Assembly: GCA_947479085.1 (NCBI GenBank)
Contig: CANJYB010000029.1
Location: 1 to 53,191, forward strand
Reading direction: 5' to 3'
Length of the DNA stretch: 53,191 bases
Source: Bacteroidota bacterium
GTDB taxonomy: Bacteria; Bacteroidota; Bacteroidia; 2-12-FULL-35-15
Within the stretch, counting starts at the first letter, position 1; each line of letters opens with the position of its first letter. The notes below the pieces were generated by a model, which worked only from the letters and a program-made list of their open reading frames with translations, had not been told where the DNA came from and searched no databases. The translations under genes were made by a program, and so were the position numbers. Below, one piece after another: positions 1 to 44,103 of the stretch.

Positions 1-958
<958 letters not shown>

Positions 959-23750: not shown

Positions 23751-23857
23751 CACTAAGCTAACGGGCAAGCAAAAGGGCGGGGCTTAGTGTGCAGTTAATG
23801 GTGTAAGCTGAGCTTACTACTATAACATTTTTATAGGTGTTTTTTTTACCTATAAAA
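23751..23857 (+). ncRNA. Structured two-hairpin element, copy A (possible RNA or mobile-element end)
   Basis: Hairpin 1 pairs CACTAAGC (23751-23758) with GCTTAGTG (23782-23789) around a 23-base loop. After a 13-base linker, hairpin 2 pairs GTAAGC (23803-23808) with GCTTAC (23812-23817) around TGA. The same 67-base layout, with paired changes in both stems, occurs on the other strand at 44037-44103. In this copy only, a third hairpin follows: TTTTATAGGT/ACCTATAAAA (23829-23857). Transcription is not shown. It could also be the end of a mobile element. Confidence 0.5.
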
Positions 23858-23960
23858 GTACATAGATTAAAAAGTTGAATATATTAATCGTCAACGTTTG
23901 TGGCGAAAATACCAACAAAGGCAAAAAATTTAAAACAAGCAATTGCCATTTTTTGGAGAA

Positions 23961-24212
23961 TAGCCTGCTTTTGTAGAAGTAATGTATGCCAACTTTTTGG
24001 TATAGCCTGCTTTTGTAGAAGTAATATATGCCAACTTTTTGGTATAGCCTGCTTTTGCAGAAGTAATGTATGCCAACTTTTTGGTATAGCCTGCTTTTGT
24101 AGAAGTAATGTATGCCAACTTTTTGTTATAGCCTGCTTCTGTAGAAGTGATATATGCCAACTTTTTGGTATAGCCTGCTTCTGTAGAAGTGATATATTCC
24201 AGCATTTCAAAA
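23961..24212. repeat. 42-bp tandem array, six copies
   Basis: Six units of exactly 42 bp start at 23961, 24003, 24045, 24087, 24129 and 24171. They differ at a few positions only. Each junction holds TTTGGTATAGCCTG. Because 42 is a multiple of three, frames of 105-114 codons stay open on both strands, giving 14-residue repeats. None has signals of a real gene. The same 14-mer occurs once more in the gap near 50862. Confidence 0.92.
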
Positions 24213-24484
24213 TGGCTAAAACTGGCATTTTTTGGTAAAAAACGCATTTTAAGGTGATTTAAGACATTATTTTAAAAAGATAGTGTTTTCCGGTTTTTTA
24301 TGTTAAAAACAGGTTTTTGAGGCTTTTTTGGGAAAAGAAGGAAAAACTTAGGCAGGTTGACGGTTTTTTGATTTATACATATATATATATGTATGGTTCC
24401 AATATTTTAACCCTAAAAATTACATAATACTGTATTTCAATAATATAACATAGTTTTACCCCCCTTCCCACCCTACTTTTTAGG

Positions 24485-24748
24485 CATACAGGATGATTAA
24501 AATAGGCATACAGGATGATTAAAATAGGCATACAAGACCATTAAAAATGACATACAGGACGATTAAAAAGGACATACAGGACAATTAAAAGTGCCATACA
24601 GGGTAATTAAAAACACCATACAAGACAATTAAAAACACCATACAAGGCAATTAAAACACTCATACAGGTCAGTTAAAAGTGTCATACCGGACAATTAAAA
24701 GTGTCATACAAGGCAACTAAAGAAAACATACAACCTAATTAAAGATAA
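24485..24748. repeat. 22-bp tandem array, twelve copies, upstream of the TPR-GAF-SpoIIE gene
   Basis: Twelve units of exactly 22 bp start at 24485 and end at 24748. The consensus begins CATACAGGACAATTAAAA and ends in four variable bases. CATAC and the TTAAA core are nearly invariant. There are no spacers, so this is not a CRISPR. The period is not a multiple of three, so it is not coding. It ends 59 bases before the ATG of the phosphatase gene and is close to two helical turns. A protein-binding array is possible. Confidence 0.9.
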
Positions 24749-24807
24749 GTTGTAATTTCACCTCCTTACAAGCAAACTTTGTATCAAACCAAACTTGTCA
24801 AACTGAA

Positions 24808-27696
24808 ATGAAAAAATTACTACTTCTTTTTGCCATCTTAAATTTGTTTCACCACCCATCTTTTTCTCAAAACAGAAAAACTAATGAGGTGCAAAATCCT
24901 ATTATGGATTCGCTGAACCTTGAGTTGAAAAAAGCAAAGCAAGATACTACCCGGTTGCGGATATATTTAGCTCTTTGTGATGCATGTGACATAAACGATA
25001 ATTTGAAATATACAGAACCGTTAATAAAATTATTAGATAAATTTATTGAGGAAGCTCCGAATGATAAAAAGAAAAAACATTATCTGGAAAAAAAAGCAGA
25101 TGCTTATGGATTTGTCAGGGCTTTTTATGACGATAAAAAGGATACCGCTAAAACTGTAGAAGTTCAAAAAATACGGATTAACATATACCAGGAAGCTAAG
25201 GACACAGAAGCGATTATTGGTCAGATGAGAGGCTTGAGCAATTATTATATGTCTTTTCAAAATTATCCTAAGGGAATTGAATATTGTGAAAAAGCATTGG
25301 CTATGGCTAAGGAAATGAATTACAAAAAAGGTATTGCTGGTTGCCTGCGCCAAATTGGAGAGATATATAAAGGACAGGGCGAAAACGCAGAAGCAATGGA
25401 AAAGTTTCAGCAATCATCATCTATTTATAGTGAACTAAAAGATACCATTGCATTGGCTGATGTGTTAGTAAGCGAAGGACTGCTTTATTGCCAATTTCAT
25501 GATTACAAAAAGGCACTTGAATGTTATAATAGATGTATTTTATTGTATGAAATTAAAAAAGAAAAACGTGGCGTTCGCAAAGGTTATGATTGTATTGCAG
25601 GTGTGTATATAGAAAATAATGATTTCCCTAATGCTATGGTGTATTTGCAAAAATGCCTGTCGATGTCGGAAGAAATGAAGGATAATTATTGGATTGGGCT
25701 TTCGTTAAAAAGTATTGGAAATATATATTCCCAACAAGGTTATTATGATAAAGCACTCGCGAAAATAAAAGAGGCATTAATCATTTATAAGAACCTGAGG
25801 GATGAAACGCAAACAGGCTGGTCGTACAATCGGTTGGCTGATACTTATTTTAAACAAAAAAATTATTCCACAGCAAAATTGTATAGTGATAGTTCCCTGG
25901 CAATAGAAAAAAAGCAGGCATTTATTTCAAATTTGCAAAATGGAGAATTACTTGCCACAAAAATTGATTCGGCAAGAGGTGATGGAAATGGAGCTTATGA
26001 ACATTACAAGCAATACATACTTCTCAGCAATAAATTAAAGAGCGAGGAAGTTCACCAGTTGGCACAAAAAGAAAAATATCAAAACGAATATGATAAACAA
26101 AAAGCAATAGATAAAGCCATTTCGGATAATGAAATTGAGAAGCAAAAAATAGTTCGCAATAGTTTTATAGGTGGTTTTGCATTAATGATTTTGCTTGCAG
26201 GGGTGAGTTACCGAAACTTCAGAAGAAAGAAGAAAGACAATAAAATAATTGAAACTCAAAAAGCTGAATTACAAAACTCGTTCAGTAATCTTGAATTATT
26301 AAATAATATAAGCACTGAAATTACTTCCTCTCTTAATATAGACAATGTAATGAGTGAGATATATAAAAATTTAAGTTCCATAATGGACATTTCCTTTTTT
26401 ATTATCGCCACCTACCATGAATCTGAAAAGAATGTTGAAATTAAATATTGTGTTAAGGATGGAAAAGTAGTTCGGGAAGAATTCAAAACTTCTATTCTTA
26501 ATCCGGATAGTTACACCGCCTGGACAATAAAAAACAAGAGTGAAATAATAATTATGGATGAGGAAAAGGAGCGTTCGAATTATCTTAATAGTGTTCGCCA
26601 ACTTCACGGAAAAGAGGATATGATGACAGATACTGTAGTATTTATTCCATTACTTATTAATGAAAAAGTAATTGGTTTGTATTCTGTTCAAAGTGTTAAA
26701 AAGAATGCATATACAAAAACTGATATTAACATATTACGTTCTTTATCCCCTGTAATTGCGGTAGCATTAAACAATGCTGATTCATATAATAAACTGGATA
26801 CTGCAAATGTGGAGATTGTGAAACAAAAAACAGTTGTAGAAGAAAAGCAAAGAGAAATACTGGATAGCATTGAATATGCTTTGCGTATTCAAACTGCTAT
26901 ACTTCCGCCCAATAAAACGGTAAAAAAATATTTAGAAAATTCCTTTATACTTTACAAGCCCAAAGATATAGTGGCTGGAGATTTTTATTGGATGGAGACC
27001 GTTCAATTTACCGATGAAACGATGAAAGGATTTACCGATAAAGGACATCCGAACATTGGTACATCTGCACATCAGATAATCCTTTTCGCTGCTTGTGATT
27101 GTACAGGGCACGGAGTGCCGGGGGCAATGGTTTCAGTTGTTTGCAATAATGCACTTAACAGAGCAGTGCGAGAATTTGGTTTAACACAACCAGCCGCCAT
27201 ACTTGACAAAACATCAGAAATAGTAATAGAGAATTTCAGTAAAAGCGAAGAAGATATAAAAGACGGAATGGATATTTCGCTGTGTAGCCTCACCCTTAAT
27301 CCCTCTCCAAAGGAGAGGGGGCAAGACCCAAGCTATACTCTTCAATGGGCGGGAGCTAATAATCCTTTGTGGTTACTGCAGAACGGAGAACTTATAGAAA
27401 CCAAAGCAGACAAACAACCAATAGGCAGGGATGAGGACAGTAAACCATTTACTAACCATTCTTTCAACCTAAAGGCAACAGATACGATTTATCTTTTCAC
27501 AGATGGTTTTGCAGACCAGTTTGGTGGCGACACGGGAGAAAAGAAATTAACGAAAAAAAGATTTAAGGATTTAATACTCTCCATTCAAAATCTATCAATG
27601 CAGGAACAAGGTGCTGCTTTAGATAAATTTATAATAGAATACAGAAAAGAAGTAGAACAGATAGACGACATACTTGTTATGGGTGTGAAAATATGA
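24808..27696 (+). CDS. TPR - transmembrane - GAF - SpoIIE phosphatase
   Basis: The product has 962 residues. A signal peptide (1-21) is followed by tetratricopeptide-type helical repeats (about 60-420), a membrane helix (about 452-472), a basic and coiled segment, a GAF domain (about 495-665) and a PP2C-like SpoIIE domain (about 690-962). The metal-site motifs are intact: GDFYW, CDCTGHGVPGA (about 763), DGMD, FTDGFADQ and DDILV. TPRs would lie outside the membrane and the phosphatase inside. The likely substrate is a phosphorylated anti-sigma-factor antagonist or similar protein, but none is coded nearby. Residues about 827-840 come from an inserted palindromic repeat. A second SpoIIE protein is at 50967-53191. 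Confidence 0.9.
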   Translation: MKKLLLLFAILNLFHHPSFSQNRKTNEVQNPIMDSLNLELKKAKQDTTRLRIYLALCDACDINDNLKYTEPLIKLLDKFIEEAPNDKKKKHYLEKKADAYGFVRAFYDDKKDTAKTVEVQKIRINIYQEAKDTEAIIGQMRGLSNYYMSFQNYPKGIEYCEKALAMAKEMNYKKGIAGCLRQIGEIYKGQGENAEAMEKFQQSSSIYSELKDTIALADVLVSEGLLYCQFHDYKKALECYNRCILLYEIKKEKRGVRKGYDCIAGVYIENNDFPNAMVYLQKCLSMSEEMKDNYWIGLSLKSIGNIYSQQGYYDKALAKIKEALIIYKNLRDETQTGWSYNRLADTYFKQKNYSTAKLYSDSSLAIEKKQAFISNLQNGELLATKIDSARGDGNGAYEHYKQYILLSNKLKSEEVHQLAQKEKYQNEYDKQKAIDKAISDNEIEKQKIVRNSFIGGFALMILLAGVSYRNFRRKKKDNKIIETQKAELQNSFSNLELLNNISTEITSSLNIDNVMSEIYKNLSSIMDISFFIIATYHESEKNVEIKYCVKDGKVVREEFKTSILNPDSYTAWTIKNKSEIIIMDEEKERSNYLNSVRQLHGKEDMMTDTVVFIPLLINEKVIGLYSVQSVKKNAYTKTDINILRSLSPVIAVALNNADSYNKLDTANVEIVKQKTVVEEKQREILDSIEYALRIQTAILPPNKTVKKYLENSFILYKPKDIVAGDFYWMETVQFTDETMKGFTDKGHPNIGTSAHQIILFAACDCTGHGVPGAMVSVVCNNALNRAVREFGLTQPAAILDKTSEIVIENFSKSEEDIKDGMDISLCSLTLNPSPKERGQDPSYTLQWAGANNPLWLLQNGELIETKADKQPIGRDEDSKPFTNHSFNLKATDTIYLFTDGFADQFGGDTGEKKLTKKRFKDLILSIQNLSMQEQGAALDKFIIEYRKEVEQIDDILVMGVKI
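27288..27327 (+). repeat. Palindromic repeat inserted in frame in the SpoIIE domain
   Basis: The bases CCTCACCCTTAAT, then CCCTCTCC-AAA-GGAGAGGG, match the inverted pair at 10532-10664, including the outer flank. Here they are translated as LTLNPSPKERG between two predicted strands of the phosphatase domain. The paralogue at 50967-53191 has only a short turn at this place (ICSVDTKNRIVKYAGANRP). Confidence 0.85.
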
Positions 27697-28177
27697 CACG
27701 GCAAACACAACTGAGGCTAACATAAGTTGCCGTTGCGGAAGCTTCTTTAAAAATAAGTGATTCAAAGAAACGGACAATATCCTCCATTTGAGGAATGTTT
27801 TAAGGTAGAAGGATTGTTCAATGATGCTCCTAAAGGAGCTAATAAGTAGTTATGTTTATTTGTTTCTATTAAGATTTAGCTCCTAAAGGAGCAGAAATGA
27901 TAAACCTAAAGGTTTCGAACACTTTTGGTTTCAAAACTCACCCGCAAACATTTTATAATGGAGACGAAACCTCCAAACTGGCAAAGGAGCCAGTTCGGAG
28001 GAGAGAGGGTATAAAAAGATACCGCATTTGGGGCGGGAAGACTGTGAACCATGAAATGGTAATAATCTTCCCAATAATTATAAAGCTCCCCCCTCCATTA
28101 GTCTTTTTTAAGAACTAAACCCGATAGTATTACAATTTATCTCCTTACTTTTGCAGTATAAAGATACCAACAGCTAA
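27697..28177. repeat. Gene-free gap with several small palindromes
   Basis: The gap holds GCTCC-TAAA-GGAGC twice (27826-27839 and 27879-27892), AAACC-TAAA-GGTTT (27902-27915), and a 32-base hairpin at 27970-28001 with 12 of 13 pairs around AAAGGA (CCTCCAAACTGGC arm). These look like Bacteroidota palindromic repeats. A 73-codon frame across them (27897-28118) is not credible. TACTTTTG at 28146-28153 is a possible -7 element for the gene at 28178. Confidence 0.7.
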
Positions 28178-29245
28178 ATGATTGCTACTTTCAGAACCTA
28201 TTATTTAATTTTTCTTTGTTTATCTTTTACGTTTATTCATACTGCTAAGGCACAGCTGGCAGCCCATGCAGGGACAGACATCAGCATTTGTCCTGGTACC
28301 AACACACAGATAGGAGCCACCATACCCGCTACCGGAGGGCAACCGCCTTATCATTATTCCTGGTCGCCATCCACAGGTTTATCTGCCACAAATGTGGCCA
28401 ACCCCATGGCATCACCTGCTTCGCTAACCATTTATACCCTAACAGTAACAGATGATACCGGGGCTGTAAGCACAGACAACATAGCCGTAGGGCTGAAATA
28501 CATCAGTAAGGTAAACGCGGGAGCAGACAGGGAAGTATGTAAAGGAGACAATTTTATGCTTGGAAATACGCTCAATGTTATCGGACAGGGCATTCATTAT
28601 AGCTGGGCACCTTCCACCGGTCTGGATAACGACACAATCCCACGTCCACTAGCATCACCTACCGAAACCATCACCTATACACTAACTGCTACCATGGCAG
28701 GTTGCACACCCAAGGTAACAACGGTTACTATTTACTTTGTGTCTATAGATGTTTCGGCCGGGCCGGATACGACTATAGACGAAGGCCAAAGTATTCAATT
28801 GGAAGCCACAGGTGCCTATATTTACCACTGGGACGCAAGCCCAACACTAAGAAACGCTTTCACGGCTAATCCGGATGCTGAACCTATTGTAACTACCACT
28901 TATTATGTTCTGGGAATAGACCGCACACTGCAATGCAGCTCAGGAGATTCGATTACAGTGCATGTAAAACCGGGAGACAATGTTTTTTTCTATAATACGT
29001 TTACTCCCAACGGTGATGATATAAATGATACATGGTATATTGGGAATATATGGAAACACCCTGACAATACCTTGCAAATATTTAACCGAAACGGTCAGCT
29101 GGTATTTAAGCAGGAGGGGTATAACAATACCTGGGATGGAAAAGCTTTTGGCCAGGAACTACCTGCTGCCACTTACTTTTATATTCTCGATTTGGGAAAT
29201 GAGGCAGGAGATAGTTATCATGGTACGGTGACGATTGTTAAGTAA
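28178..29245 (+). CDS. Small surface protein with T9SS type B (CHU_C) sorting domain
   Basis: The product has 355 residues. A signal peptide (1-25, ending AKAQ) precedes three Ig-like/PKD-like segments of the form AGTDISICPGTNTQIG and YSWSPSTGL (26-265). The last 85 residues match the gliding-motility-associated CHU_C domain used as a type B sorting signal (FFYNTFTPNGDDINDTW, LQIFNRNGQLVFK, YNNTWDGK, TYFYILDLG, GTVTIVK). The gene is followed 42 bases later by a PorP/SprF gene, the usual partner of type B cargo. It is far shorter than SprB-like adhesins. Confidence 0.88.
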   Translation: MIATFRTYYLIFLCLSFTFIHTAKAQLAAHAGTDISICPGTNTQIGATIPATGGQPPYHYSWSPSTGLSATNVANPMASPASLTIYTLTVTDDTGAVSTDNIAVGLKYISKVNAGADREVCKGDNFMLGNTLNVIGQGIHYSWAPSTGLDNDTIPRPLASPTETITYTLTATMAGCTPKVTTVTIYFVSIDVSAGPDTTIDEGQSIQLEATGAYIYHWDASPTLRNAFTANPDAEPIVTTTYYVLGIDRTLQCSSGDSITVHVKPGDNVFFYNTFTPNGDDINDTWYIGNIWKHPDNTLQIFNRNGQLVFKQEGYNNTWDGKAFGQELPAATYFYILDLGNEAGDSYHGTVTIVK

Positions 29246-29287
29246 TTATGGGTTATGAATTATAAGTTTTTTAGTTGCCTGTAAATA

Positions 29288-30250
29288 TTGAAAAAAGTTA
29301 GTTTATATATCTTATTTATACTTGTGGTGTGTAATGAAATACAGGCGCAACAATTGCCGTATTATACACAGTACAGGAGCAATATATTTTTACTGAACCC
29401 TGCTGTAACCGGAACAAAACGAACAGTAGATGCAAGGCTGGGCTATCGCTACCAATGGGCAGGGTATGATGGGGCTCCGCGAACCTCCATGGTGAGTGCG
29501 CATGGAAGGTTCTTTAAAGGGAAAATGGGAGCAGGTCTGTTTATGGTCCAGGATAGAATAGGTCCGAGCAAACAAACGAACCTGGGTGTGAATTATGCAT
29601 TCCATATTCGATTTCCAGATTGCGAACTTTCAATGGGAGCAGGAGGATTGTTTACCAAATATACACTGGAAGGTGGTGACATAACACTGCATAATACAGT
29701 GGATCCTTCGATTAATCAATACATAGCCAGCAGTGTGTGGGTGCCGGATGTAAATGCCGGGATATACCTTTATAACGACCGGTTTCACATAGGAGTGGGT
29801 GCGCTGCACCTTGCACAGCAAAAGGCCAATTTTTATAAAGGCGATTCGGCCAAACATGGTAAAATACCTTACAGTGCCCATGTCAACTTAAGTGTAGGAT
29901 ATAACTTTGCGCAAAACCCTGAATATGTATGGGAAAGCAATGTACTGGCCACCTATGTAACAGGAGTGCCCCTTTTCCTGGATTATACCTTACGGCTGCA
30001 TATAAAAGAAAAGATGCTTTGTGGTTTATCGCTCCGCTTACATGATGCGGTAGCGCTGCACCTTGGAGTAACTTTCCTGGAGGATTTCCAGGTGACTTAT
30101 TCGTACGACTTTTTGCTAAGCAAGATGCGGCATACCAACAGCGGTTCGCATGAGATAGTTATAACTTACAGTATGAAACCACTTCGAGGCAAGAAACACG
30201 GAAAAACAGACAATCAATTTGTTAAACAGAAATATGGTTATATGTTTTAA
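29288..30250 (+). CDS. PorP/SprF-family outer-membrane protein (TTG start)
   Basis: The product has 320 residues. PorP/SprF proteins are outer-membrane beta-barrels that help export or anchor type B T9SS cargo. The signal peptide (1-21, ending IQAQ) is followed by the family start QLPYYTQYRSNIFLLNPAVTGT, then YRYQWAGYDGAPRT. The only start that keeps the signal peptide is TTG at 29288; there is no ATG in the frame before the mature part. The cargo is probably the preceding CHU_C protein. A second family member is at 37044-38105. Confidence 0.92.
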   Translation: MKKVSLYILFILVVCNEIQAQQLPYYTQYRSNIFLLNPAVTGTKRTVDARLGYRYQWAGYDGAPRTSMVSAHGRFFKGKMGAGLFMVQDRIGPSKQTNLGVNYAFHIRFPDCELSMGAGGLFTKYTLEGGDITLHNTVDPSINQYIASSVWVPDVNAGIYLYNDRFHIGVGALHLAQQKANFYKGDSAKHGKIPYSAHVNLSVGYNFAQNPEYVWESNVLATYVTGVPLFLDYTLRLHIKEKMLCGLSLRLHDAVALHLGVTFLEDFQVTYSYDFLLSKMRHTNSGSHEIVITYSMKPLRGKKHGKTDNQFVKQKYGYMF

Positions 30251-30268
30251 GCCAAGCGTTGATTTAAA

Positions 30269-31237
30269 ATGAAAAATAAAGCTTCTGAAATAATAATGGT
30301 GAGCCCTGCTCGTTTTGGTTATAACAAACAAACGGCAAGTACTAACTTGTTTCAACAGAATGATGATGTGAGTGCTGATAAAATACAAGAAAGAGCGCTG
30401 AAAGAGTTTGAGGGATTTGTTAAGCTGTTAAAAAAAAACCATGTGAATGTAAAGGTTCTTAAAGATACCATTTCGCCCGCCACCCCTGATTCAATTTTCC
30501 CAAATAATATTGTTTCATTTCATACCATCGAAAACCTTACAGTGCCAGCACCTCCTGAAATGAATTTGCCCGACAACCTTTTAAACTTTAAAAATATTCC
30601 TGCATTAGTTATTTACCCGATGATGGCCAAGAACAGAAGAAGGGAAAGGGAAGGAGTGATAAGAAAGAAAATGAAAGGGTATTCTGTTGTATTTGATTTG
30701 TCTATTAATGAAAACCATGAAAACTTTCTGGAAGGTACGGGAAGCATAATATTTGATTACGAAAACCAGGTAGCTTATGCAAGTAACTCGAAGCGAACAA
30801 ATATTGAGTTGTTTAAAATGCTATGTCAACATTTAAATTATTCGACAGTAACGTTTTCGTCAGTAGATAAAAAGGGAAATGAAATATACCATACCAATGT
30901 GATGATGTGTATAGGCAAAGGATTTGCAGTAGTATGCGATGAGTGTGTGAGGGATAAGGAAGAATTATTTACATTGATGAAATCGCTTATAGATACGGAC
31001 CATAAAATTATTACCATAAATTATAAGCAGCTGAATGCCTTTGCCGGCAATATGTACCAGCTGTTTAACAAAAAAGGAGAAAGCATTATTGTGATGAGCG
31101 AGCAAGGATATAAGTCGCTTAAAAAAGAACAGATTACCAAATTAAAAAAATTCGGGAAGATACTTCACCCGCCCCTGTATACAATTGAAAAGTATGGAGG
31201 AGGAAGTGCTAGGTGTATGATTGCTGATGTTAGGTAG
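30269..31237 (+). CDS. ctlX: CtlX-like amidinotransferase/deiminase-fold enzyme
   Basis: The product has 322 residues in the pentein (arginine deiminase-like) fold. Visible motifs are PDSIFPNN, LEGTGSIIFD, the His-containing YHTNVMMCIG and the C-terminal nucleophile GGGSARCMIADV (Cys316). These fit the citrulline hydrolase CtlX group, which splits citrulline to ornithine, CO2 and ammonia. Other guanidine or ureido substrates are possible. It starts 18 bases after the PorP/SprF gene but is unlikely to share its role. No other arginine gene is close. Confidence 0.8.
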   Translation: MKNKASEIIMVSPARFGYNKQTASTNLFQQNDDVSADKIQERALKEFEGFVKLLKKNHVNVKVLKDTISPATPDSIFPNNIVSFHTIENLTVPAPPEMNLPDNLLNFKNIPALVIYPMMAKNRRREREGVIRKKMKGYSVVFDLSINENHENFLEGTGSIIFDYENQVAYASNSKRTNIELFKMLCQHLNYSTVTFSSVDKKGNEIYHTNVMMCIGKGFAVVCDECVRDKEELFTLMKSLIDTDHKIITINYKQLNAFAGNMYQLFNKKGESIIVMSEQGYKSLKKEQITKLKKFGKILHPPLYTIEKYGGGSARCMIADVR

Positions 31238-31296
31238 GTATTGGTTTGTGGTTTGTTATTGGTTTGAATATTATTTAATAAAAAAAATTAGAAAAG

Positions 31297-31785
31297 ATGC
31301 CGTCATTTGATATTGTAAACAAGGTAGATGCGCAGTTACTGGATAATTCCATTAATGTTGCGAAAAGAGAAATTATGAATCGTTTTGATTTTAATGGTTC
31401 GAAAAGTGAAATAACACTGGATAAAAAAGCCATGATGATTTCCATATTGACGGAAGATGATATGCGAATGGAATCGATTATTAACGTTATCCGTCAGCGA
31501 ATGATTAAACAAAACCTGAATCCACTTTGCCTGGATGTGGGCAAGGAAAGATATGCTTCGGGCTTTATGGTAAAAAAAGATGTGAAAGTGAAGGAAGGAA
31601 TAGACAAAGAGGTGGCAAGGAAAATTATAAAAGACATAAAGGATTCGAAGTTGAAAGTACAGGCACAAATGATGGATGACCAAGTGAGGGTAACTGCCAA
31701 AAAGATTGATGACCTGCAGGAAGTAATAGCAATGATGCGGAGAGGAAGTTATGATTTACCATTGCAATTTGTGAATATGAAGTAA
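31297..31785 (+). CDS. yajQ: YajQ-family nucleotide-binding protein
   Basis: The product has 162 residues, the normal family length. The start MPSFDIVNKVD, the RFDFNGSKSEI segment and the C-terminal QVRVTAKKIDDLQEVIAMMR are characteristic. The fold is a pair of ferredoxin-like domains. Xanthomonas and Pseudomonas members bind cyclic di-GMP and act on transcription. Whether the Bacteroidota member binds it is unknown. Confidence 0.95.
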   Translation: MPSFDIVNKVDAQLLDNSINVAKREIMNRFDFNGSKSEITLDKKAMMISILTEDDMRMESIINVIRQRMIKQNLNPLCLDVGKERYASGFMVKKDVKVKEGIDKEVARKIIKDIKDSKLKVQAQMMDDQVRVTAKKIDDLQEVIAMMRRGSYDLPLQFVNMK

Positions 31786-31879
31786 CTTCCTATTCACAAA
31801 TTGCAATAAGGTATCTGATTATTCCGAATCAAGTTAATCTTATGTTTTTTGAAAGAAGTAAAAAAAATAAAGTGAGAAC

Positions 31880-32302
31880 CTATTTTAAAATGGTTTGAGA
31901 AAAATATTTAAACAGTTTTTTGGCAGTTGTTGCATTATCGAGAGAAGTAACCAGGCTTGAAAATTCCTGTAGATTAAGAATATCCTTTAGCTGTTTCATA
32001 TCCACATCTTTTAGTTCTTTAAACGCCATGCTCCATGAAGAAAAGGCTCTTTCCTTTAAAGAACCTTGGTGCAATAAGGTGGGGTGGCAATGCCTTTTAT
32101 CAATATTAATTTTTTTGAACAATTGTTTAATTACCTCTTCTTCTCCTTCGAGGATTTGTAAAAATTCGCGATGGTGAAAAAGAAGGCAACCTGTTATATT
32201 ATGTTCATCATTAAATTTTCGAGCAGTATTAAGAATGTCCGTAATATCTTTTGAAGTAATTTCTCTTATTGCAATACTACAATAAATTAATTCGAATCCC
32301 AT
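31880..32302 (-). CDS. Stand-alone BLUF blue-light photoreceptor
   Basis: The product has 140 residues: a BLUF domain (1-95) and a short helical tail. FAD-binding and photocycle residues match AppA with a constant offset of 14: Tyr7 (Tyr21), Ser9, Asn31 (Asn45), Gln49 (Gln63), Trp90 (Trp104) and Met92 (Met106). It should bind flavin and switch on blue light. There is no fused output domain, so it must act through a partner, not identifiable here. The neighbouring genes are not obviously related. Confidence 0.95.
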   Translation of the reverse strand: MGFELIYCSIAIREITSKDITDILNTARKFNDEHNITGCLLFHHREFLQILEGEEEVIKQLFKKINIDKRHCHPTLLHQGSLKERAFSSWSMAFKELKDVDMKQLKDILNLQEFSSLVTSLDNATTAKKLFKYFSQTILK

Positions 32303-35483: not shown

Positions 35484-35824
35484 TTTTTTCCTTTAACCGT
35501 TGCCAGGTAATCAACTATGCGGTTAACAATGGTGGTATCGGCAATGGGAGCGCCATACATCTTCACCATTTTCTTTACAATTTTATCCCAGCCTTTCCTG
35601 TTCATGTCCGGTTGCATTTCAATATAACGAAGGGAATGACAGGTGACACAATTGGAATTTACCAGTTCTACATCCTTTGCATCAGGAAGCGAAACCGCTA
35701 CTTTATCAATATCTATAGAAGTTTCGGCAGGAACAGGTAATTTTACTTTTTCCTTTTCGGGAGAACAGGAAAATAAAATCATTGAAATAAAAACAAGTGC
35801 TAAACCATTAATTCCTTTCATCAT
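35480..35824 (-). CDS. sorB: Lipoprotein cytochrome c, SorB-like subunit
   Basis: The product has 114 residues. The lipobox is LFSC (Cys20) and the single heme site is CVTCH (59-63). Met70 or Met74 may be the second iron ligand. Small monohaem cytochromes of this kind take electrons from SorA-type sulfite dehydrogenase. The first bases overlap the stop codon of the molybdoenzyme gene, a strong sign of translational coupling. Confidence 0.87.
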   Translation of the reverse strand: MMKGINGLALVFISMILFSCSPEKEKVKLPVPAETSIDIDKVAVSLPDAKDVELVNSNCVTCHSLRYIEMQPDMNRKGWDKIVKKMVKMYGAPIADTTIVNRIVDYLATVKGKK

Positions 35825-37041
35825 TATTTTACTTTAATAACCAACGATTCTATTTCATTTCTCATGAACCCGCTTCTGTTCCATTGATGCCATGGCTGAG
35901 TTTCGTTTTTAGTATTGGTAGCTTTTACAAAAAACTTATAAGTACCGGCAGCTGTGGGTTTAAAATTATACCTCCATCTTCTCCATGAATAATTTCCAAG
36001 CGAAGCATCGAGCTTTGCAGCAGTCCAAGTTTTGCCACTATCATTGCTTATTTCCACTTTCTCAATGCCATCTCCCCCATCCAGTGCCAGTCCCTGTATC
36101 TCAGTATTTACTCCAACAGAAGCAACAGTGCCAGGTTCCGGAGCAACAAAGATGGAACGAACATCTAACTTATTAATCGGGACCAGGTTTTTGGCAAGCG
36201 AATCGGGTTTCTCATTTCCGTTTTTTATGCCTCTGGGAACCAGATAAGCCTTGTCCATCCAATAACCTTTGAATGTATCGGGATATACTTTTATTTCGTT
36301 CAGCATACCTATCCAATATGTTGCATACCATCCCGGAACCACCAGCTTTAAAGGGTAACCGTTTAGTAAAGGCAATGCCTGCCCATTCATTTCATAAGCT
36401 ATCATGACTTCGCCATCGATGGAATGATTATAATCGAGTGACTTTACAAAATCAGGAATGGTGGGTAAAGGAGGTGCATCCATTCCATTGAACGAAACAA
36501 ATTTTGAATTAGATTTCGATTTGGCCATCTCCAATACATCCTTCAACTTTACTCCTGTCCATTTTGCATTTCCCATTCCCCCATTGGTCCATTGCGCACC
36601 GGGAACTCTTGGATTAAAATTGTTTCTTGAATTGCCTGCACACTCGCATACTGCATTTACCGAATAGGATTTGAATTTTGTTTTTAAATCTGTAAGTGAT
36701 AATTCCAACTTACTATTTACATTTCCCGAAACTCTTAAACGAAAGGTATCGGCATTTATTTGTGTTGGCAGATTAGACAAATGCCAACGAACAAAAAACA
36801 CATCGTTTGGTGTAAAATCTTCTAGAAAATATTTTAATGGTGTTTCCAGGTTGGGTGGCCTGTCTGTCAGCAGCAGCAATGGCTTCTTCTCGGGTGCTGT
36901 TACCATGGTACCTTTCGAACCGTCCTTTGGTAGCTCACTCCCTTCTTCCTTTTTTTCGTCAGGCGATGAGCAGGAATAAAAGGCAAAAAGAACAACCGTG
37001 ACAAAAAACAGTTTGATGAATGAGGATACTTTGTAGGACAT
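35824..37041 (-). CDS. sorA: Molybdopterin-dependent sulfite dehydrogenase, SorA-like, lipoprotein
   Basis: It oxidises sulfite to sulfate and passes electrons to a cytochrome c. The product has 405 residues with a lipobox FYSC (Cys24). The molybdenum ligand is Cys134 in VCECAGNSR. The usual sulfite oxidase family patterns PGAQWTNGGMGNAKWTGV, PGWYATYWIGML and the dimerisation-domain ending PWHQWNRSGFMRNEIE are present. It has no N-terminal heme domain, so the next gene's cytochrome is the likely acceptor. The Tat motif is absent; the lipoprotein signal is Sec-like, which is unusual for a molybdoenzyme. Confidence 0.88.
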   Translation of the reverse strand: MSYKVSSFIKLFFVTVVLFAFYSCSSPDEKKEEGSELPKDGSKGTMVTAPEKKPLLLLTDRPPNLETPLKYFLEDFTPNDVFFVRWHLSNLPTQINADTFRLRVSGNVNSKLELSLTDLKTKFKSYSVNAVCECAGNSRNNFNPRVPGAQWTNGGMGNAKWTGVKLKDVLEMAKSKSNSKFVSFNGMDAPPLPTIPDFVKSLDYNHSIDGEVMIAYEMNGQALPLLNGYPLKLVVPGWYATYWIGMLNEIKVYPDTFKGYWMDKAYLVPRGIKNGNEKPDSLAKNLVPINKLDVRSIFVAPEPGTVASVGVNTEIQGLALDGGDGIEKVEISNDSGKTWTAAKLDASLGNYSWRRWRYNFKPTAAGTYKFFVKATNTKNETQPWHQWNRSGFMRNEIESLVIKVK

Positions 37042-37043
37042 AT

Positions 37044-38105
37044 TTAAAATCTTGCTTCCGTTCTTGGTTTCTTAAATGCACTTGGTGCAACAAATCTAAG
37101 GGAAATTTCAAAACCACCTCTAGTGGTAGTTACAGTTTTTAACTGAGAAAGATTAATATCATAACTAAAACCAATTTCATAATTGGCATACTCAAATTTA
37201 ACAACAGCTATCAACGCATCCTTTAAACGATAATACCCGCCAATAGAAAAAGCAGCCGGCTTTTTATTGTCTGTATATTTTGAACCACTTTGCAGTATGT
37301 ACTGAAACATCATTCCAGGAGTAATTTCTTTTGTGGGGCCTTGAACAAATACAATGTAGGATGGCTTTAAAACCAGGTTGGTACCTTTCATTCCTATTGC
37401 GGCATTTCCATTAAAAACAAATTTGGTATACAGCTTTTCAGAAGCATCACCATAAAAAGAATATATGGGCTGATGAGGATGAAAGACAGAAAAGCCAATA
37501 TTAATTTTTCGTGCATCATTTGAAGAAATATACATTTCATCGGTGCCGTAGCTGTAATTAATACCTGCTCCGAGATCTGCATATCCAAAACTACCTGCAG
37601 TTACAGGTTCTCCTGATGCCAACGATGATTCATAGGCCATACCATTGTACTGATTTCCCCAAGTGAGTGCACCTGTATTAATAGTATGCTGTGAATACCC
37701 GAACATCAATCCTCCTGAAAAAATACTTTTGCGTGAAATAGGAATAATAGCTGATAAGGAAACATTGAATTGATTAGTGGCTACCGCAGCATCGCCTGCT
37801 TTGTCGTTTAAGAAATCGAACCCGAAGCCCATGTGGTTTTTCTTTTTTCTTAACAGCCGAGTATCAAACGAAAGAGCAAATGTTTTATATGGAGAAGAAA
37901 TACTGGCCCATTGGTTTTTATAATTAGCTATTGCCTGTATCTCATGGTGAACACCTGTATTAGACGGATTTAGCTGCACGGGAGTTTCGTCAAACTGAGA
38001 AAAGTGAAAGTCCTGTGCTGTTGCAAGAAAGCCTGTAATCATAGTAAATACAATGATGAAACAAAATGCTTTGACTGATAATGTGTTTTTAGTTTCCATC
38101 TGCAT
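37044..38105 (-). CDS. PorP/SprF-family outer-membrane protein
   Basis: The product has 353 residues. A signal peptide (to about 31, ATAQ) precedes DFHFSQFDETPVQLNPSNTG, the family start, and repeated beta strands. It starts one base past the stop of the 1802-residue SprB-like gene, and a second Met at residue 3 is an alternative start. It is the probable export or anchoring partner for that adhesin, as SprF is for SprB in Flavobacterium johnsoniae. Confidence 0.93.
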   Translation of the reverse strand: MQMETKNTLSVKAFCFIIVFTMITGFLATAQDFHFSQFDETPVQLNPSNTGVHHEIQAIANYKNQWASISSPYKTFALSFDTRLLRKKKNHMGFGFDFLNDKAGDAAVATNQFNVSLSAIIPISRKSIFSGGLMFGYSQHTINTGALTWGNQYNGMAYESSLASGEPVTAGSFGYADLGAGINYSYGTDEMYISSNDARKINIGFSVFHPHQPIYSFYGDASEKLYTKFVFNGNAAIGMKGTNLVLKPSYIVFVQGPTKEITPGMMFQYILQSGSKYTDNKKPAAFSIGGYYRLKDALIAVVKFEYANYEIGFSYDINLSQLKTVTTTRGGFEISLRFVAPSAFKKPRTEARF

Positions 38106-38106
38106 C

Positions 38107-41100
38107 TTATTTTACAATTGTTATGTTACCATGTTTCTTTACTTCTTGGCCTTTTACAGTGGCTGATAAATAATAAGCAAACACACCGGCATCCAATTTC
38201 TTCCCATTAAAAGTTCCATCCCAGCCAACTGTCTGGTCGGTGGTTTCAAATACCTTTTCTCCCCAACGGTCGAAGATGGCTAGTTGAAGATTAGAAATAC
38301 AATCGCCCATTACATAAAGAAAATCATTCTGACCATCGTTGTTAGGAGAAAATGCAGTAGGAATAAATAATTCTCCGCAAAGTATATCTATAAATACGGT
38401 AACCGAATCGGTGGTAGAACATCCGTTTAATGTTACGGTAAGTGTATAGGTTGTGGTTTGCGCAGGGGTAGCAATAGGATTTGCACAATTATTACAACTT
38501 AATGAACCGGAAGGTGACCAACTAAAAGTTGCACCTAATGAACCGGTACCATTTAAAAGAGTAGAATTTCCGGCAGTAATGGTAACATCATTTCCGGCAT
38601 CTGCCGTAGGGCCTCCTATGGAAGCAACCGTTGCAGTATTGGTTGCGGTACATCCCAGCGAATCAGTAACAGTTACCGTATATGTACCTGCACCCAAATT
38701 ATTTATGGAAGAAGTACTTCCCCCGGGCGGACTCCACGAATAAGACAAAGTTCCTGTTCCGCCACCTGCAATGGCTGAGGCTGTTCCGGTATTTGACGAA
38801 CAATTAGAAGGAGTGGATGAAGTAGTTAATATAATTGCCGGATTTTGTGTAATGGTAACGGTTGAAGCATTAGAACAACCGGCACCATCAGTAACCGTTA
38901 CAGTATAAGTTCCAGCTGATAAGCCAGAAGAAGTAGCATTGGTGCCTCCCCCACCCGACCAGGAATAAGACAATGTACCTGTTCCGCCTGTTGCATTGGC
39001 CGTTGCACTTCCCGTATTTCCGCCATTACAATTTACATTAATCTGTGAAGTGATTGAAACAACCGGTCCTGTGGAATTAGCAATTACTACCAGGCAGGTT
39101 GCGATGCAGCTATTGCCATCCGTTGCAGTAACTGTATAGGTATTGGCCGCGAGGCCGGAAGCAGAAGCATTATTTCCTCCGCTTGGTGACCAGCTGTAAG
39201 TATAACCTCCTCCTATAGTTCCGCCACTTGCAGCTACTGTACCACTTCCATTACTGTTTCCACAGGTAGCATTGATGGAATTGACAAGAGCAACAGAAAG
39301 CGCTGAAACAGGCTGGGTAATGGTTAACACCGCACTGGAAACACAATTATTATTATCTGTAACCGTTACCGTATAGGTACCGGCAGTTAAGTTATTCAAG
39401 GTATTGGGAACCGCAATATTGTTTGCCGTTTGCAAGGTTCCCACAGTACCTGTCCACACATAGTCGTAAGGAGAAGCACCACCGGTAGCGGTGGAAGTGG
39501 CATTTCCTGTATTTCCACCAAAGCAAAGCACATTGGTTTGACTGGTTATATTTACTGTAGCCCCGCCTGTATTAGTTATAACCGCAGTATTGGAAGCTGT
39601 GCAACCATTATTATCCGTTACCGTAATGGTATATGTACCCGCTGCCAGGTTATTCAACACATCCGTAGAAGTACTGTTATTAGTTGTTTGTAATGTTCCC
39701 GCTGATCCTGTCCATACATAATCATAAGGCGAGGTTCCTCCTGAAGCCAATGCAGTAGCACTTCCGGAAGATGCATTACAAGGCGCGTTTACAGTATTGG
39801 TAATAGCTACGACAGGAGCTGATGAAGGCTGAGTGATGGTGACTGTAGCACTTCCGATACAACCATTATTATCAGTAACTATTACGGTATAAGTTCCCGC
39901 AATTAAGTTATTTACAACATCCGCAACCACACTGTTATTGGTAGTTTGCACTGTTCCTGAACTGCCTGTCCAAACATAATCGTAAGGAGATACCCCTAAT
40001 GTAGCATTGGCAGTGGCACTTCCGGTAGTTCCCCCGAAACATAAAACATCCATCTGTGAAGTGATGGAGACGGAAGCTCCTCCTGTATTGGTTAAAGTAA
40101 CCGTTGCCGAAGCCACACAACCATTGTTATCAGTAGTGGTAACAGTATAGGTTCCTCCTGCCAGGTTGTTCAATACATCCTGGGTAGTGCTGTTGTTTGT
40201 GGTTTGCAATGTTCCTGCGGTACCGGTCCATACATAATCGTAAGGAGAAGTTCCTCCGTTTGCCAGGGCTGTTGCACTTCCTGTATTGCTTCCGCATGGA
40301 GGATTGGTGGAGGCTGTTATGGAAACTGATGAAGCTGAAGCTGGCTGGGTAATGGTTACGGTGTTTGTTCCTATACAACCATTAGAATCGGTTACAGTTA
40401 TGGTATAAGTTCCTGCAGCCAGGTTATTTATTACATCAGGCACCACACTGTTGTTGGTAGTTTGCAAAGTACCTGCTGTTCCTGTCCATGCGTAATCATA
40501 AGGTGAAGCACCAAGAGTGGCACTTGCTGTGGCATTTCCTGTAGCTCCTCCAAAACATAAAACATTTGTTTGTGAAGTAATGGAAACGGAAGGGCCTCCG
40601 GAATTGGATAAAGTAACTGTCGCAGAAGCGGTACAACCATTATTATCCGTTACTGTAACCGTATACGTTCCGGCCGATAGATTATTTAACACATCGGAAG
40701 TATTACTGTTATTGGTAGTTTGCAGTGTACCTGCTGTTCCTGTCCAGACATAATCATAAGGGGCTGCACCACCCGATGCCAGACCCGTTGCACTACCGTT
40801 TGTTCCTCCACAGGAAGGATTTGTGGAAGCTGTTATGCTGGTAACAAGGGCAGAAGAAGGCTGAGTGATGGTAACGGTAGCGGTTCCCGGACAGTTATTA
40901 GCATCGGTAACATTTAAAGTATAGGTGGCTGCCCCAAGCCCATTAAAACTTTGGGTTCCTGCAACGTTTGAAAATGCAGCTACCGTACTTGCTCCATTCA
41001 TCAATACATAATTATACGGTCCTGTTCCACCTGAAGTGGACGCACTAAAGCTGCCGGTAGACTGCCCGAAACAGTTTACATTTACCTGTGCGGAAATGCT

Positions 41101-43515
41101 TACCGTTAATGGAGGGCAGCTGACACAGAAAGGAATTGAAGCAAGACTGGTAATAGTAAATATTGTTCCTACATTATCAATTACCTGCAGAGGAAAAGTT
41201 CCAGGAGGTACTGCTGTGGTGCCGGTGGCAAAGGTGTTCCAACCAGTTACAGGAGGACCTGCTACTGTAAAAGCACCATTACAAAACCCAAAACCTGCTA
41301 CGCATGGATTGGTGGTTACCTGCTGCTGCCAGGTGTAAGGACCATTTCCTCCCGAAACTGTTAATAAGGTTCCAGTTGCATTTTGACATACACTTAAAGG
41401 AGTACAGTTATTTACAGTAATATCAACCGTTCCGGTTCCGCATGGCAAAGTATACGTAATAGTAAAAACTCCAGCCCCTGAAACAGCCGGATTAAATACT
41501 CCACCGGCTGTAACTCCTGTACCACTCCATGTTCCTCCGGCAACAACAGGAGATAAGGTAACTGATGCACTGGTGGTGCATAACGGAGCAATCGGACAAA
41601 CCGTGGCATCGCAACAGATTAATACCTGAGGAAGACAGGCAGACATATTTATTTGTTGTGCATATCCTGTACGAGTGTTTACTGAGTTGTCACCGGTTGC
41701 CCCACAAACTATTACATTTCCTCCCGTACTTACCGCTACATCGAATACTTTAAAAGGAACAGAAACGGAAGACAGCTGCACCAGGTTAGCATCGTATTTA
41801 ATAACAGCATTACCTGAACCAACATAAACATTGCCACAACTATCTATATCTATACCACTGTTTCCAGCCTGATTGGTCCCTCCAAATACTGCATTGGAAA
41901 CACCTCCGGGAATGGCGGCAGTAGTAATTATTGCACCTGTGGTTAACGAACGCTTGTGAACCGTACTTCCATTTTGGGTATAAACAAAATTTCTATTTGC
42001 CTTGATGGCGCATATTCCTGAATTACCATTGTTTGGCCGATAGTTCTCCATTTTATAACTAAAATGATAACCATCATTGATATTGAATAAAGTATTGGAA
42101 CCGGGACAGGCTGCAAAATTCTGGTCGAAGGAACCAATTGAATCGAGTGTTAGGAAATAATAGCGGGAGTTAAACGATGATGTAACTGCACGCACTTCTT
42201 CCACATCGTTAATTCCTAAAAATCCGGGCCGGTCGTAACCAACTATTTTGGTAGCTGTTACACTTCCGTTGGCCGTATTGATATCGAAAATCATCCCATC
42301 TCCTGTGGGAAAAAGTGAGTTTAGCCTAGTTCCGCCAACAATGAGTTTGGTTTGGTCGCAGTTAAAAGCGATGCTCCAGTACTCATCCAAACCTCCCCCG
42401 TTAACACTCCATACCATTGTACCCGCAGTATTAATTTTTTGCATGGCTGCTCCCGAGCCATTGGTAACATAAGAATTTCCCGCTAGGTCGGTGGCCAGAG
42501 TTCCTAACCAATCCTGCTGTGAAGTATCCCAAGGGGTCGTATAGGTCCATTGCAATATGCCAGCAGAGCTGTACTTTAATAATTTCATTGGGGTATCTCC
42601 TCCAATTATGTATGCATTGCCGGCACCGTCTCTTTCGCATTCCCATACCCCGTTAGAAGCAGGCAAGGTGGGTGTTACCACCCATGGGTCGATAATAACC
42701 GTTTTTGAATGGTCATAATTGCCAAGGTTAAAACCTATTGTTTTTCCGTTTCTGTTAAAAGAGGAAGTGATGATGTTTGATTTATCTCCGGAATAAAAAC
42801 TTACAGGAGCATGGTCGATGATGTTTCCAAACCTGGAATTAACCAAAACATCTCCCGCTCCATTTAGTTTAATATTACTATCGTATTTCATTTTCACCAC
42901 CGATGCATCGGCACCGGGATGAACGATTAATGCGTATTTAATACCTTCTTCGGGATGAAAAGTGTATTCCACATCAATTCCCGGGTAGAGGTTTTTATAA
43001 ATAAGTTTGCGATAGCTGTTGATGTGATTGATATTGATAGGTTTTGAATTTTTCTGAGGTATTGAATAACTCTGGTAATCGGGGGTAATGTCTTCGGCAA
43101 CTAACTGTGCATTGGGGTTAGCACCTTGCCATATCATGTCCACCACATCGGTGGTGAACTTCATTTGCCTTTCTTCGGCTTCCAGTTCTGCATGCGATTT
43201 ACCTTCCTTGCCTTCTTTCTCCATTTGGTCTTTGTCTTCTTCTTTTTTCCATTTTTTAAGAAAACTATAGGTCAACCCTTTGGCAGTAAAATAAATTTTT
43301 ACCGGACCATTATCCACCGCATAAAGAACTTTTGCCTTGTTTTCAGATTTTCCGTTTATCTGAAACTGTCCTTTGTTTTCGATGAACGATTTTTGATTGG
43401 CAAATTTTATGTCCCATCCCTTGTTGCCATCAATGGCAAACGTGGCGCTGGTAAAACCAACGGCAATGATTAACAATAAAATACGCAGAGAATGGTGATA
43501 GAAATGTTTCTTCAT
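38107..43515 (-). CDS. SprB-like giant adhesin with ten SprB repeats and T9SS type B sorting domain
   Basis: The product has 1802 residues. A signal peptide (about 1-27) is followed by the segment SFIENKGQFQ that opens the N-terminal domain common in Bacteroidota surface proteins (40-250), a propeller-like region (270-620), a Cys-rich linker, ten SprB-type repeats of about 78 residues (about 860-1640), one Ig-like repeat (GGPTADAGNDVTIT) and a CHU_C type B sorting domain (FIPTAFSPNNDGQNDFLYV to the end). SprB-type proteins are moved along the cell surface by the gliding motor. The repeats alternate between a CFGG type and a CGxxxG type. The next gene is its PorP/SprF partner. Confidence 0.93.
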   Translation of the reverse strand: MKKHFYHHSLRILLLIIAVGFTSATFAIDGNKGWDIKFANQKSFIENKGQFQINGKSENKAKVLYAVDNGPVKIYFTAKGLTYSFLKKWKKEEDKDQMEKEGKEGKSHAELEAEERQMKFTTDVVDMIWQGANPNAQLVAEDITPDYQSYSIPQKNSKPININHINSYRKLIYKNLYPGIDVEYTFHPEEGIKYALIVHPGADASVVKMKYDSNIKLNGAGDVLVNSRFGNIIDHAPVSFYSGDKSNIITSSFNRNGKTIGFNLGNYDHSKTVIIDPWVVTPTLPASNGVWECERDGAGNAYIIGGDTPMKLLKYSSAGILQWTYTTPWDTSQQDWLGTLATDLAGNSYVTNGSGAAMQKINTAGTMVWSVNGGGLDEYWSIAFNCDQTKLIVGGTRLNSLFPTGDGMIFDINTANGSVTATKIVGYDRPGFLGINDVEEVRAVTSSFNSRYYFLTLDSIGSFDQNFAACPGSNTLFNINDGYHFSYKMENYRPNNGNSGICAIKANRNFVYTQNGSTVHKRSLTTGAIITTAAIPGGVSNAVFGGTNQAGNSGIDIDSCGNVYVGSGNAVIKYDANLVQLSSVSVPFKVFDVAVSTGGNVIVCGATGDNSVNTRTGYAQQINMSACLPQVLICCDATVCPIAPLCTTSASVTLSPVVAGGTWSGTGVTAGGVFNPAVSGAGVFTITYTLPCGTGTVDITVNNCTPLSVCQNATGTLLTVSGGNGPYTWQQQVTTNPCVAGFGFCNGAFTVAGPPVTGWNTFATGTTAVPPGTFPLQVIDNVGTIFTITSLASIPFCVSCPPLTVSISAQVNVNCFGQSTGSFSASTSGGTGPYNYVLMNGASTVAAFSNVAGTQSFNGLGAATYTLNVTDANNCPGTATVTITQPSSALVTSITASTNPSCGGTNGSATGLASGGAAPYDYVWTGTAGTLQTTNNSNTSDVLNNLSAGTYTVTVTDNNGCTASATVTLSNSGGPSVSITSQTNVLCFGGATGNATASATLGASPYDYAWTGTAGTLQTTNNSVVPDVINNLAAGTYTITVTDSNGCIGTNTVTITQPASASSVSITASTNPPCGSNTGSATALANGGTSPYDYVWTGTAGTLQTTNNSTTQDVLNNLAGGTYTVTTTDNNGCVASATVTLTNTGGASVSITSQMDVLCFGGTTGSATANATLGVSPYDYVWTGSSGTVQTTNNSVVADVVNNLIAGTYTVIVTDNNGCIGSATVTITQPSSAPVVAITNTVNAPCNASSGSATALASGGTSPYDYVWTGSAGTLQTTNNSTSTDVLNNLAAGTYTITVTDNNGCTASNTAVITNTGGATVNITSQTNVLCFGGNTGNATSTATGGASPYDYVWTGTVGTLQTANNIAVPNTLNNLTAGTYTVTVTDNNNCVSSAVLTITQPVSALSVALVNSINATCGNSNGSGTVAASGGTIGGGYTYSWSPSGGNNASASGLAANTYTVTATDGNSCIATCLVVIANSTGPVVSITSQINVNCNGGNTGSATANATGGTGTLSYSWSGGGGTNATSSGLSAGTYTVTVTDGAGCSNASTVTITQNPAIILTTSSTPSNCSSNTGTASAIAGGGTGTLSYSWSPPGGSTSSINNLGAGTYTVTVTDSLGCTATNTATVASIGGPTADAGNDVTITAGNSTLLNGTGSLGATFSWSPSGSLSCNNCANPIATPAQTTTYTLTVTLNGCSTTDSVTVFIDILCGELFIPTAFSPNNDGQNDFLYVMGDCISNLQLAIFDRWGEKVFETTDQTVGWDGTFNGKKLDAGVFAYYLSATVKGQEVKKHGNITIVK

Positions 43516-43551
43516 AAGTTAGTAGCTTTTTAGTTAACAAATGCAATGCAG

Positions 43552-43559
43552 CAAATCTA
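43552..43559 (-). promoter_or_regulatory. Likely -7 element for the SprB-like/SprF operon
   Basis: On the minus strand TAGATTTG fits TAnnTTTG, 36 bases before the ATG. The -33 region has only TTTC at the right distance, so the promoter is weak or regulated. Confidence 0.45.
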
Positions 43560-43626
43560 AACTAATTTTATTAAGGTGGAAAGAAAAAACGATGAAAATT
43601 AATAAGGGAGGTGTTAAAATAAAATG

Positions 43627-43668
43627 ACGGATGTCCGATGTCCGATGACGGATGACCAATGCCGGATG
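43627..43668. repeat. 7-bp tandem repeat, six copies
   Basis: Six units of seven bases with the pattern NCSGATG (for example TCCGATG, ACGGATG) run without gaps. Short repeats of this kind are common in Bacteroidota gaps. Confidence 0.7.
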
Positions 43669-43679
43669 AATGTCAAGTT

Positions 43680-43706
43680 CGTCATTGCTAGGAACGAAGC
43701 AGTCTC
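43680..43706 (+). repeat. Dispersed repeat, CGTCATTGC...CGAAGCAGTCTC type, copy 2
   Basis: It is a diverged copy of the repeat at 23372-23400. A further fragment GGATTGCTTTGCGCCTCGCA (43722-43741) looks like its inverted partner, so the pair could fold into a hairpin. Confidence 0.6.
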
Positions 43707-44036
43707 TGTAGTTCTTTTAAAGGATTGCTTTGCGCCTCGCATTTTCGAAATCCATATTTTTAGAACTCTTGTGAAAAGCACCTTTTTGTTCCATTTATTG
43801 ATAATTAATTTTAGTTATCGCTTCAAGTAAGTCCGGGATATATAAAACACGCTTATTTGTATCTTATTAAAACTATAATGTTAATTTCGTCTCCTTAACT
43901 TAATGACATTGCGCTCGCGCCTGCGGGGTGTTTTGTGGAAAGATAAATGAAGTTTTTAAAAGTCCCATATTAACTCTTCTTTTTTTGCCAGAGCTGTATT
44001 TTTAACTTGCTTTTTTTTCATTTCTTTTTTATTTAT

Positions 44037-44103
44037 GTAAGTAAAACTTATGGTATTAGTTTCACGCTAAGCGTCACCACATGTCCTAACCGTCAGCTTA
44101 GCG
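44037..44103 (-). ncRNA. Structured two-hairpin element, copy B
   Basis: Read on the minus strand, hairpin 1 pairs CGCTAAGC with GCTTAGCG (44065-44103) around a 23-base loop, and after a 13-base linker hairpin 2 pairs ATAAGT with ACTTAC (44037-44051) around TTT. Stem, loop and linker lengths equal those of the element at 23751-23817. Substitutions in both stems keep pairing. The 31-bp repeat lies just upstream on the same strand, in the same order as in copy A. Confidence 0.5.

Follow-up and report, generated by a model that had tools for sequence, protein, structure and literature searches.

A two-hairpin repeat of Bacteroidota as the very probable REP of one RAYT transposase clade

Repetitive extragenic palindromes (REPs) pose the question of how they spread, and of how an IS200-like transposase turned into the apparently single-copy, domesticated RAYT. 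In passages of an earlier account, RAYTs appear incapable of self-mobilisation and are described as single-copy (PMC3116915). For class 2 of the TnpA_REP proteins, part of a survey reports that copies are few and of low mutual identity, and the same part describes subclass 2.6 of Bacteroidetes by its 'atypical secondary structures' (Quentin et al. 2018, PMC6006769). The E. coli TnpA_REP requires a conserved bulge in the stem, according to an excerpt of PMC8266576; for a Marinomonas TnpA_REP the same source reports that the dinucleotide at which it cleaves shifts with the foot.

The element described here was found in a stretch of 53,191 nucleotides from a Bacteroidota contig (CANJYB010000029.1), the whole of which we call the window. 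It is very probably the REP of one Bacteroidota clade of RAYT/TnpA_REP proteins, which belong to the Y1 HUH single-strand DNA transposases. This reading, derived from sequence comparison, is based on covariation in the stems, on the converging bracketing of one RAYT clade and on multicopy units that end at the elements.

The element in the window and in related genomes

Copy A lies on the plus strand and is covered at 23740..23823 by a match of 75.9 bits to R1, a covariance model built on 31 copies. Its CCCCC lead (23741-23745) and foot GTAC (23746-23749) were read directly from the sequence. Hairpin 1 follows at 23751..23789, with the arms CACTAAGC (23751-23758) and GCTTAGTG (23782-23789) enclosing a loop of 23 nt; a linker of 13 nt then leads to hairpin 2, GTAAGC-TGA-GCTTAC, at 23803..23817. 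Copy B is on the minus strand (R1 match 44031..44114, 69.1 bits), and its foot is decayed, as it reads TTTC (44108-44105). Its hairpin 1 (44065..44103) has the arms CGCTAAGC (44103-44096) and GCTTAGCG (44072-44065), and the 23-nt loop and the 13-nt linker are the same. Hairpin 2 of copy B, ATAAGT-TTT-ACTTAC, was read from the sequence at 44037..44051, and the other three hairpins were placed from sequence and pair counts. Direct reading thus bore out the original prediction of two copies with two hairpins each and no length differences. In copy B, the outermost pair of stem 2, which had been taken for a wobble, is A.C and hence a mismatch that is not of the G.U type.

Copy A is neighboured by genes for GDSL-lipase-like and TPR/SpoIIE proteins, copy B by genes for an SprB/CHU_C protein and a TonB-dependent receptor. 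Between copy A and the TPR/SpoIIE gene there are two tandem arrays, one at 23960-24201 (42-bp unit, 5.8 copies) and one at 24485-24721 (22-bp unit, 10.8 copies). The stretch 43857-43914 (minus strand) is part of a repeat present at 17 places in the same genome, at least eight of them less than 200 bp from a contig end; it is probably the end of an IS that breaks the assembly, and on contig C27 it directly adjoins the foot of one copy of the element. The window itself begins inside a 16S rRNA gene (1-958, minus strand) that is cut by the contig end.

A blastn search of the own genome with copy A returned further copies on C17 (E 2e-29) and C27 (E 5e-27), so that the pair in the window is not due to chance. 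With R1, ten copies were detected in this genome at 39.6-82.4 bits, the next match scoring 22.4 bits, and none of the ten overlapped an open reading frame of at least 120 aa in a crude ORF call. At the DNA level, one copy was matched in 10 of 41 genomes (the own genome and relatives). Within the genus, 21 of 36 genomes had R1 matches, with up to 23 copies per genome at E 0.01; usual REP abundance is much higher, namely more than 100 copies per genome in passages of PMC2817692, a figure that is usual and not strictly defining. Under stricter filters, a sample of 295 genomes from the class yielded R1 matches in 25, covering 11 of 155 genera. Further homologues, on which the original prediction had depended, therefore exist in the own genome, the genus and the class. 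A search for the short core TAAGCTNACGG with up to two mismatches stayed at chance level (35 found, 33.5 expected), and a search of plasmid records gave no match.

The element starts with a CCCC lead, the foot GTA[G/C/A] and a G, followed by hairpin 1, typically CGCTAAGC ... GCTTAGTG, a short linker and hairpin 2, typically GTAAGC-nnn-GCTTAC. It is about 85 nt long, or about 64 nt when the loop of hairpin 1 is short. Among the 106 distinct copies in which our script placed stem 1, this loop had a length of 23-26 nt in 74 copies and of 3 nt in 14. Conservation extends to the unpaired lead and foot. The foot is GTA[G/C/A] in 96 of the 115 distinct copies, as GTAG (41), GTAC (35) or GTAA (20). 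The feet in the window are GTAC and TTTC. We did not retain a possible link of the fourth foot base to the bases at the start of the loop, as the table for it was not clean.

Neighbouring copies preferentially face each other. Among 150 listed of 194 R1 hits in the 36 genus genomes, neighbours within 200 bp were converging in 20 cases, in the same direction in five and diverging in none; within 1000 bp the corresponding numbers were 29, eight and two. These converging doublets are the REPIN arrangement. One locus of genome G020 (L040, 605-834) holds three elements in direct tandem at a spacing of about 70 bp, in contrast to the usual converging pairs.

A 31-bp repeat had been noted on the same side of both copies. 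It occurs exactly at 23608-23638 (plus strand) and 44149-44179 (minus strand), with 0.00 occurrences expected by chance, and does lie upstream of both copies, but at distances of 112 and 45 bases. Only three of the ten own-genome copies have it within 300 bp. It is hairpin 1 of a second two-hairpin REP family and not part of the element's unit. Next to copy A this second element spans 23608..23659 (plus strand), its hairpin 2 being CGGCC TCT GGCCG at 23647-23659. Variants of the repeat, with 2-3 mismatches in 23, adjoin a RAYT of another clade on the own contigs C13, C22 and C31, and a related RAYT in G022 is likewise adjoined by such variants. The proximity of repeat and element is thus a clustering of two REP families. 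The second RAYT clade (L093, L258, L253) starts with MSTGYQIKEQ and has its own REP family; its genes are found on three own contigs, each truncated by the contig end.

Pairing and covariation in the stems

The original prediction had proposed selection on structure because the stems changed while pairing was kept, and this is supported by 115 distinct copies. These were drawn from 150 of 157 R1 matches in 81 searched loci and aligned with the model (alignment A3); being fitted to R1, A3 leans towards the structure. It replaced an earlier alignment, A1, in which 2 of 15 pairs covaried and whose copies were picked by a pattern in which parts of the two stems were preset, so that its invariant core was partly imposed.

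In A3, 94.4% of the cells pair. Covariation was strong: two-sided changes were seen in 131 cells, whereas shuffles gave 28.4 and slid partners no more than 37, and the covariation score was 0.263, slid partners reaching 0.055 at most. The number of pairs in which a two-sided change occurs at all does not separate the observed from the slid alignment (10 of 15 observed, 11 when partners were slid by +3), and therefore only the cell counts and the score discriminate. As examples, T-A is replaced by G-C in stem 1 of 21 copies, and C-G by T-A in stem 2 of 37 copies. Near the foot, 80 of 113 copies have a G.T at one pair position; on the other strand this reads A.C.

Folding of single copies as DNA gave a mixed picture. 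Copy A alone was not more stable than its shuffles (z -0.79, 43 of 200 as good), whereas copy B was (z -2.88, 1 of 200 as good). The complement of copy A did not form hairpin 1; that of copy B formed both hairpins, but less stably (-9.9 as compared to -12.1 kcal/mol).

Association with one RAYT clade

RAYT loci were collected from named genomes with two peptide patterns, and the best 80 of 423 confirmed relatives were scanned, a non-random sample. Among these 80, all nine loci of one clade, in the following called cognate, had converging R1 matches on both sides of the gene, and none of the other 71 had a match at E up to 0.1. The cognate loci are 73-100% identical to the query, the other 71 only 43-55%, and the nine belong to MAG records labelled Bacteroidetes, Bacteroidota, Bacteroidia or Chitinophaga. 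In a separate set of 20 loci with RAYT-like genes, the R1 matches of six, in five genomes of the genus, converged on the gene or lay on both sides of it.

A tree of 87 RAYT rows placed the 15 rows labelled as R1-positive in one clade with a support of 100/99. This label includes weak matches (33-40 bits), and the right-hand match of L281 is non-converging. Nine of the 80 loci were left out of the tree, four by choice and five for stop codons, and nine RAYTs of R1-positive genomes outside the genus and seven of other genomes were added. R1 matches also occurred in 20 genomes outside the genus, of which 14 encode a protein matching the RAYT profile, in some cases of other clades; the gene has R1 matches on both sides in G063, G064, G245 and G226, and G190, G136 and G060 have them on one side.

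A cognate RAYT or its remnant was assigned to 12 genomes of the genus on bits per residue (about 1.3 or more against about 1.2 or less); 11 of these carry elements, as compared to 10 of the other 24 (p 0.005). Elements without a cognate RAYT are present in G015 (23 copies), G005 (21 copies) and the own genome (10 copies), the first two having the most and nearly the most copies in the genus. G043 has an intact cognate RAYT and no R1 match at E 0.01. In the own assembly no cognate-clade RAYT was found. A tblastn search for degraded cognate RAYTs at 14 loci of the own genome and G004 returned only RAYTs of other clades (C13, C22, C31), the 638-bp gap between two copies on C8 had no significant tblastn match to the cognate RAYT, and the viral contigs encoded no RAYT relative.

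The cognate protein has about 177 aa. One member, L095, matches the NCBIfam model REP_Tyr_transpos (NF047646) with 94.5 bits (cut-off 80) and does not match transpos_IS200 (NF033573) at E 0.001. The only PDB sequence matched at E up to 1 is 4er8, the E. coli TnpA_REP (E 5.8e-5, in two short stretches). In an alignment of four proteins, H59, H61, Y143, N147 and P148 are invariant, covering the HUH and YxxxNP motifs, and the motifs read SH[IV]H, WK and YIH[DN]NP.

The flanks of the 71 non-cognate loci among the best 80 of 423 also contain inverted repeats, the REPs of diverse Bacteroidota RAYTs, which differ in sequence from the element and share a grammar: CGC, stem, loop, complementary stem and GTG, with a G.T mismatch. 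CGC/GTG ranks first among all closing triplets at these loci. It occurs on both sides in converging orientation at 46 of the 71, and on at least one side at 64 or 63 in two counts. The fully paired versions CGC/GCG and CAC/GTG were on both sides at none of the 71 and on at least one side at five and two, respectively; the opposite-strand reading CAC/GCG was on both sides at three and on at least one at 20. At the position one step further out, 75 of 95 sides have a Watson-Crick pair (G-C 56, C-G 10, T-A 9), and the foot GCT[GAC] is present in 72 of 95. A second hairpin follows in 25 of the 95 sides as compared to 11% in shuffles, so that the two-hairpin form is a subset. This mismatch motif provides a simple rule for REP searches in Bacteroidota, where REPs have so far been called atypical and needed to be found by eye.

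Possible mobility of the units and comparison with known systems

In five genomes, element-RAYT-element units or parts of them are repeated at 91-98% identity, and homology stops at the outer element ends or within 7 bp of them, as it does in an insertion sequence. The units of G048 (784 bp, 93%) end within 1 bp of the outer element boundaries on both sides, those of G245 (707 bp, 91%) within 1 and 4 bp, and those of G022 (733 bp, 95%) within 2 and 7 bp. In G004, contig C81, which encodes an intact cognate RAYT of 177 aa, matches parts on C42, C1 and C9 at 97-98% with visible ends within 0-2 bp, where C42 and C9 are overlapping contig ends and may be one copy. In G063, 409 bp are shared at 97%, with the visible end within 6 bp. 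Sharp ends with unrelated flanks are therefore seen on both sides in G048, G245 and G022, and at the visible ends in G004 and G063. Other genomes were less clear-cut: units of G064 (77-82%) end at the element on one side and at the RAYT start on the other, homology between the two units of G190 (93%) continues 22 bp beyond the one element found, and the two RAYT genes of G136 are only 70% identical.

Our preferred reading of these boundaries is that the units may have arisen by transposition. When the element strand becomes single-stranded, the RAYT would bind hairpin 1, with the foot and the mismatched base of the stem as contacts, cleave near the CCCC lead and move what lies between two inverted elements. 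The cargo could be the RAYT gene, giving an IS-like unit, or a short spacer, giving converging doublets as in REPINs. The two copies in the window would then be solitary, partly decayed leftovers.

The same elements could be REPs in an ordinary, non-mobile REPtron, the RAYT units being copied by homologous recombination between pre-existing elements. We consider this less likely than transposition. Target doublets do exist (20 converging pairs among 150 listed of 194 hits), recombination within the 85-bp elements would yield the same boundaries, and a search for an empty site with the joined flanks of one G048 unit in 36 genomes matched only G048 itself. However, in five genomes homology reaches to the outermost element base or to within 7 bp of it, the shared tract is short for homologous recombination, and decayed and internally deleted units (the latter seen in locus L300 of G048) resemble the decay of an IS.

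Much less probable is that the elements are extragenic hairpins for transcription termination or mRNA stability with only a secondary link to the RAYT. Such roles have been hypothesised for REPs (in part of PMC3733652), and all ten own-genome copies lie outside the ORFs of the crude call, but in copies A and B hairpin 2 is not immediately followed by a run of T (T5 comes ten bases on in A), and the conserved unpaired lead and foot are not needed for termination. That the helices are conserved for the function of a structured RNA, be it a small RNA, riboswitch or leader, would equally predict compensatory changes in both stems, yet it is highly improbable, as converging pairs and bracketing of one transposase clade are unexpected for an RNA, the conserved mismatch is G.T on one DNA strand only, the two annotated window copies adjoin unrelated genes, no Rfam family reaches its gathering score at the element (in the window only the 16S rRNA does) and none matches it at E up to 5 at four loci.

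Of the two readings offered by the original prediction, the end of a mobile element is the supported one, since elements bracket the RAYT in converging orientation and sit at the ends of multicopy units, while an unrecognised RNA is not supported. The copies are not remnants of transposase coding sequence; they are only related to a transposase gene.

For the wider proposal, we see the chances as about equal. It states that this RAYT clade is not domesticated, that element-RAYT-element could be a self-mobilising single-strand transposon whose symmetric ends have two hairpins each, that lone and paired elements would be its non-autonomous derivatives, and that the whole could represent a living intermediate between IS200/IS605 and the single-copy RAYT/REPIN systems; the CGC/GTG foot with its G.T mismatch would serve many Bacteroidota RAYTs as a common recognition code. 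If true, a clade with its RAYT between its own REPs, in several copies and with derivatives, would allow the transition to be studied directly. In the literature searched, largely without subscription papers, we did not recognise a description of the element with its two hairpins, of the CGC/GTG mismatch or of RAYT units in several copies. What is new beyond this literature are the multicopy units ending at elements and the CGC/GTG foot with its G.T mismatch.

The nearest known category is TnpA_REP subclass 2.6, as far as described in the part of PMC6006769 quoted here. Common features are the occurrence in Bacteroidota, the protein length (about 179 aa in that paper), the Y-motif ending in NP, and a gene with atypical secondary structures on its flanks, copies of which occur elsewhere in the genome. 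The same part gives the motifs NH[LIV]H, WQ and YIH[QN]NP for subclass 2.6, as opposed to SH[IV]H, WK and YIH[DN]NP here; as the key motifs NH[LIV]H and WQ are lacking, we did not file the clade under 2.6. Subclass 2.6 is also described there as being without GT[AG]G, whereas GTAG is the commonest foot here (41 of 115), and as having 1.8 copies per genome at 40.7% identity, in contrast to the closely similar copies of our units.

With the REPs and TnpA_REP of E. coli (4er8), the element shares a tetranucleotide foot beside a hairpin and a mismatch in the stem and, as in REPIN/BIME doublets, inverted pairs and a gene bracketed by REPs. Unlike E. coli REPs, it has two hairpins, often with an apical loop of 23-26 nt, a foot that is GTAC or GTAA as often as GTAG, a low copy number and multicopy RAYT units. 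Like IS200/IS605, the system places a Y1 HUH enzyme between ends that form hairpins, and it occurs in multicopy units and in decayed copies; the ends of IS608 are asymmetric in passages of PMC3116915, whereas here both ends are inverted copies of one element.
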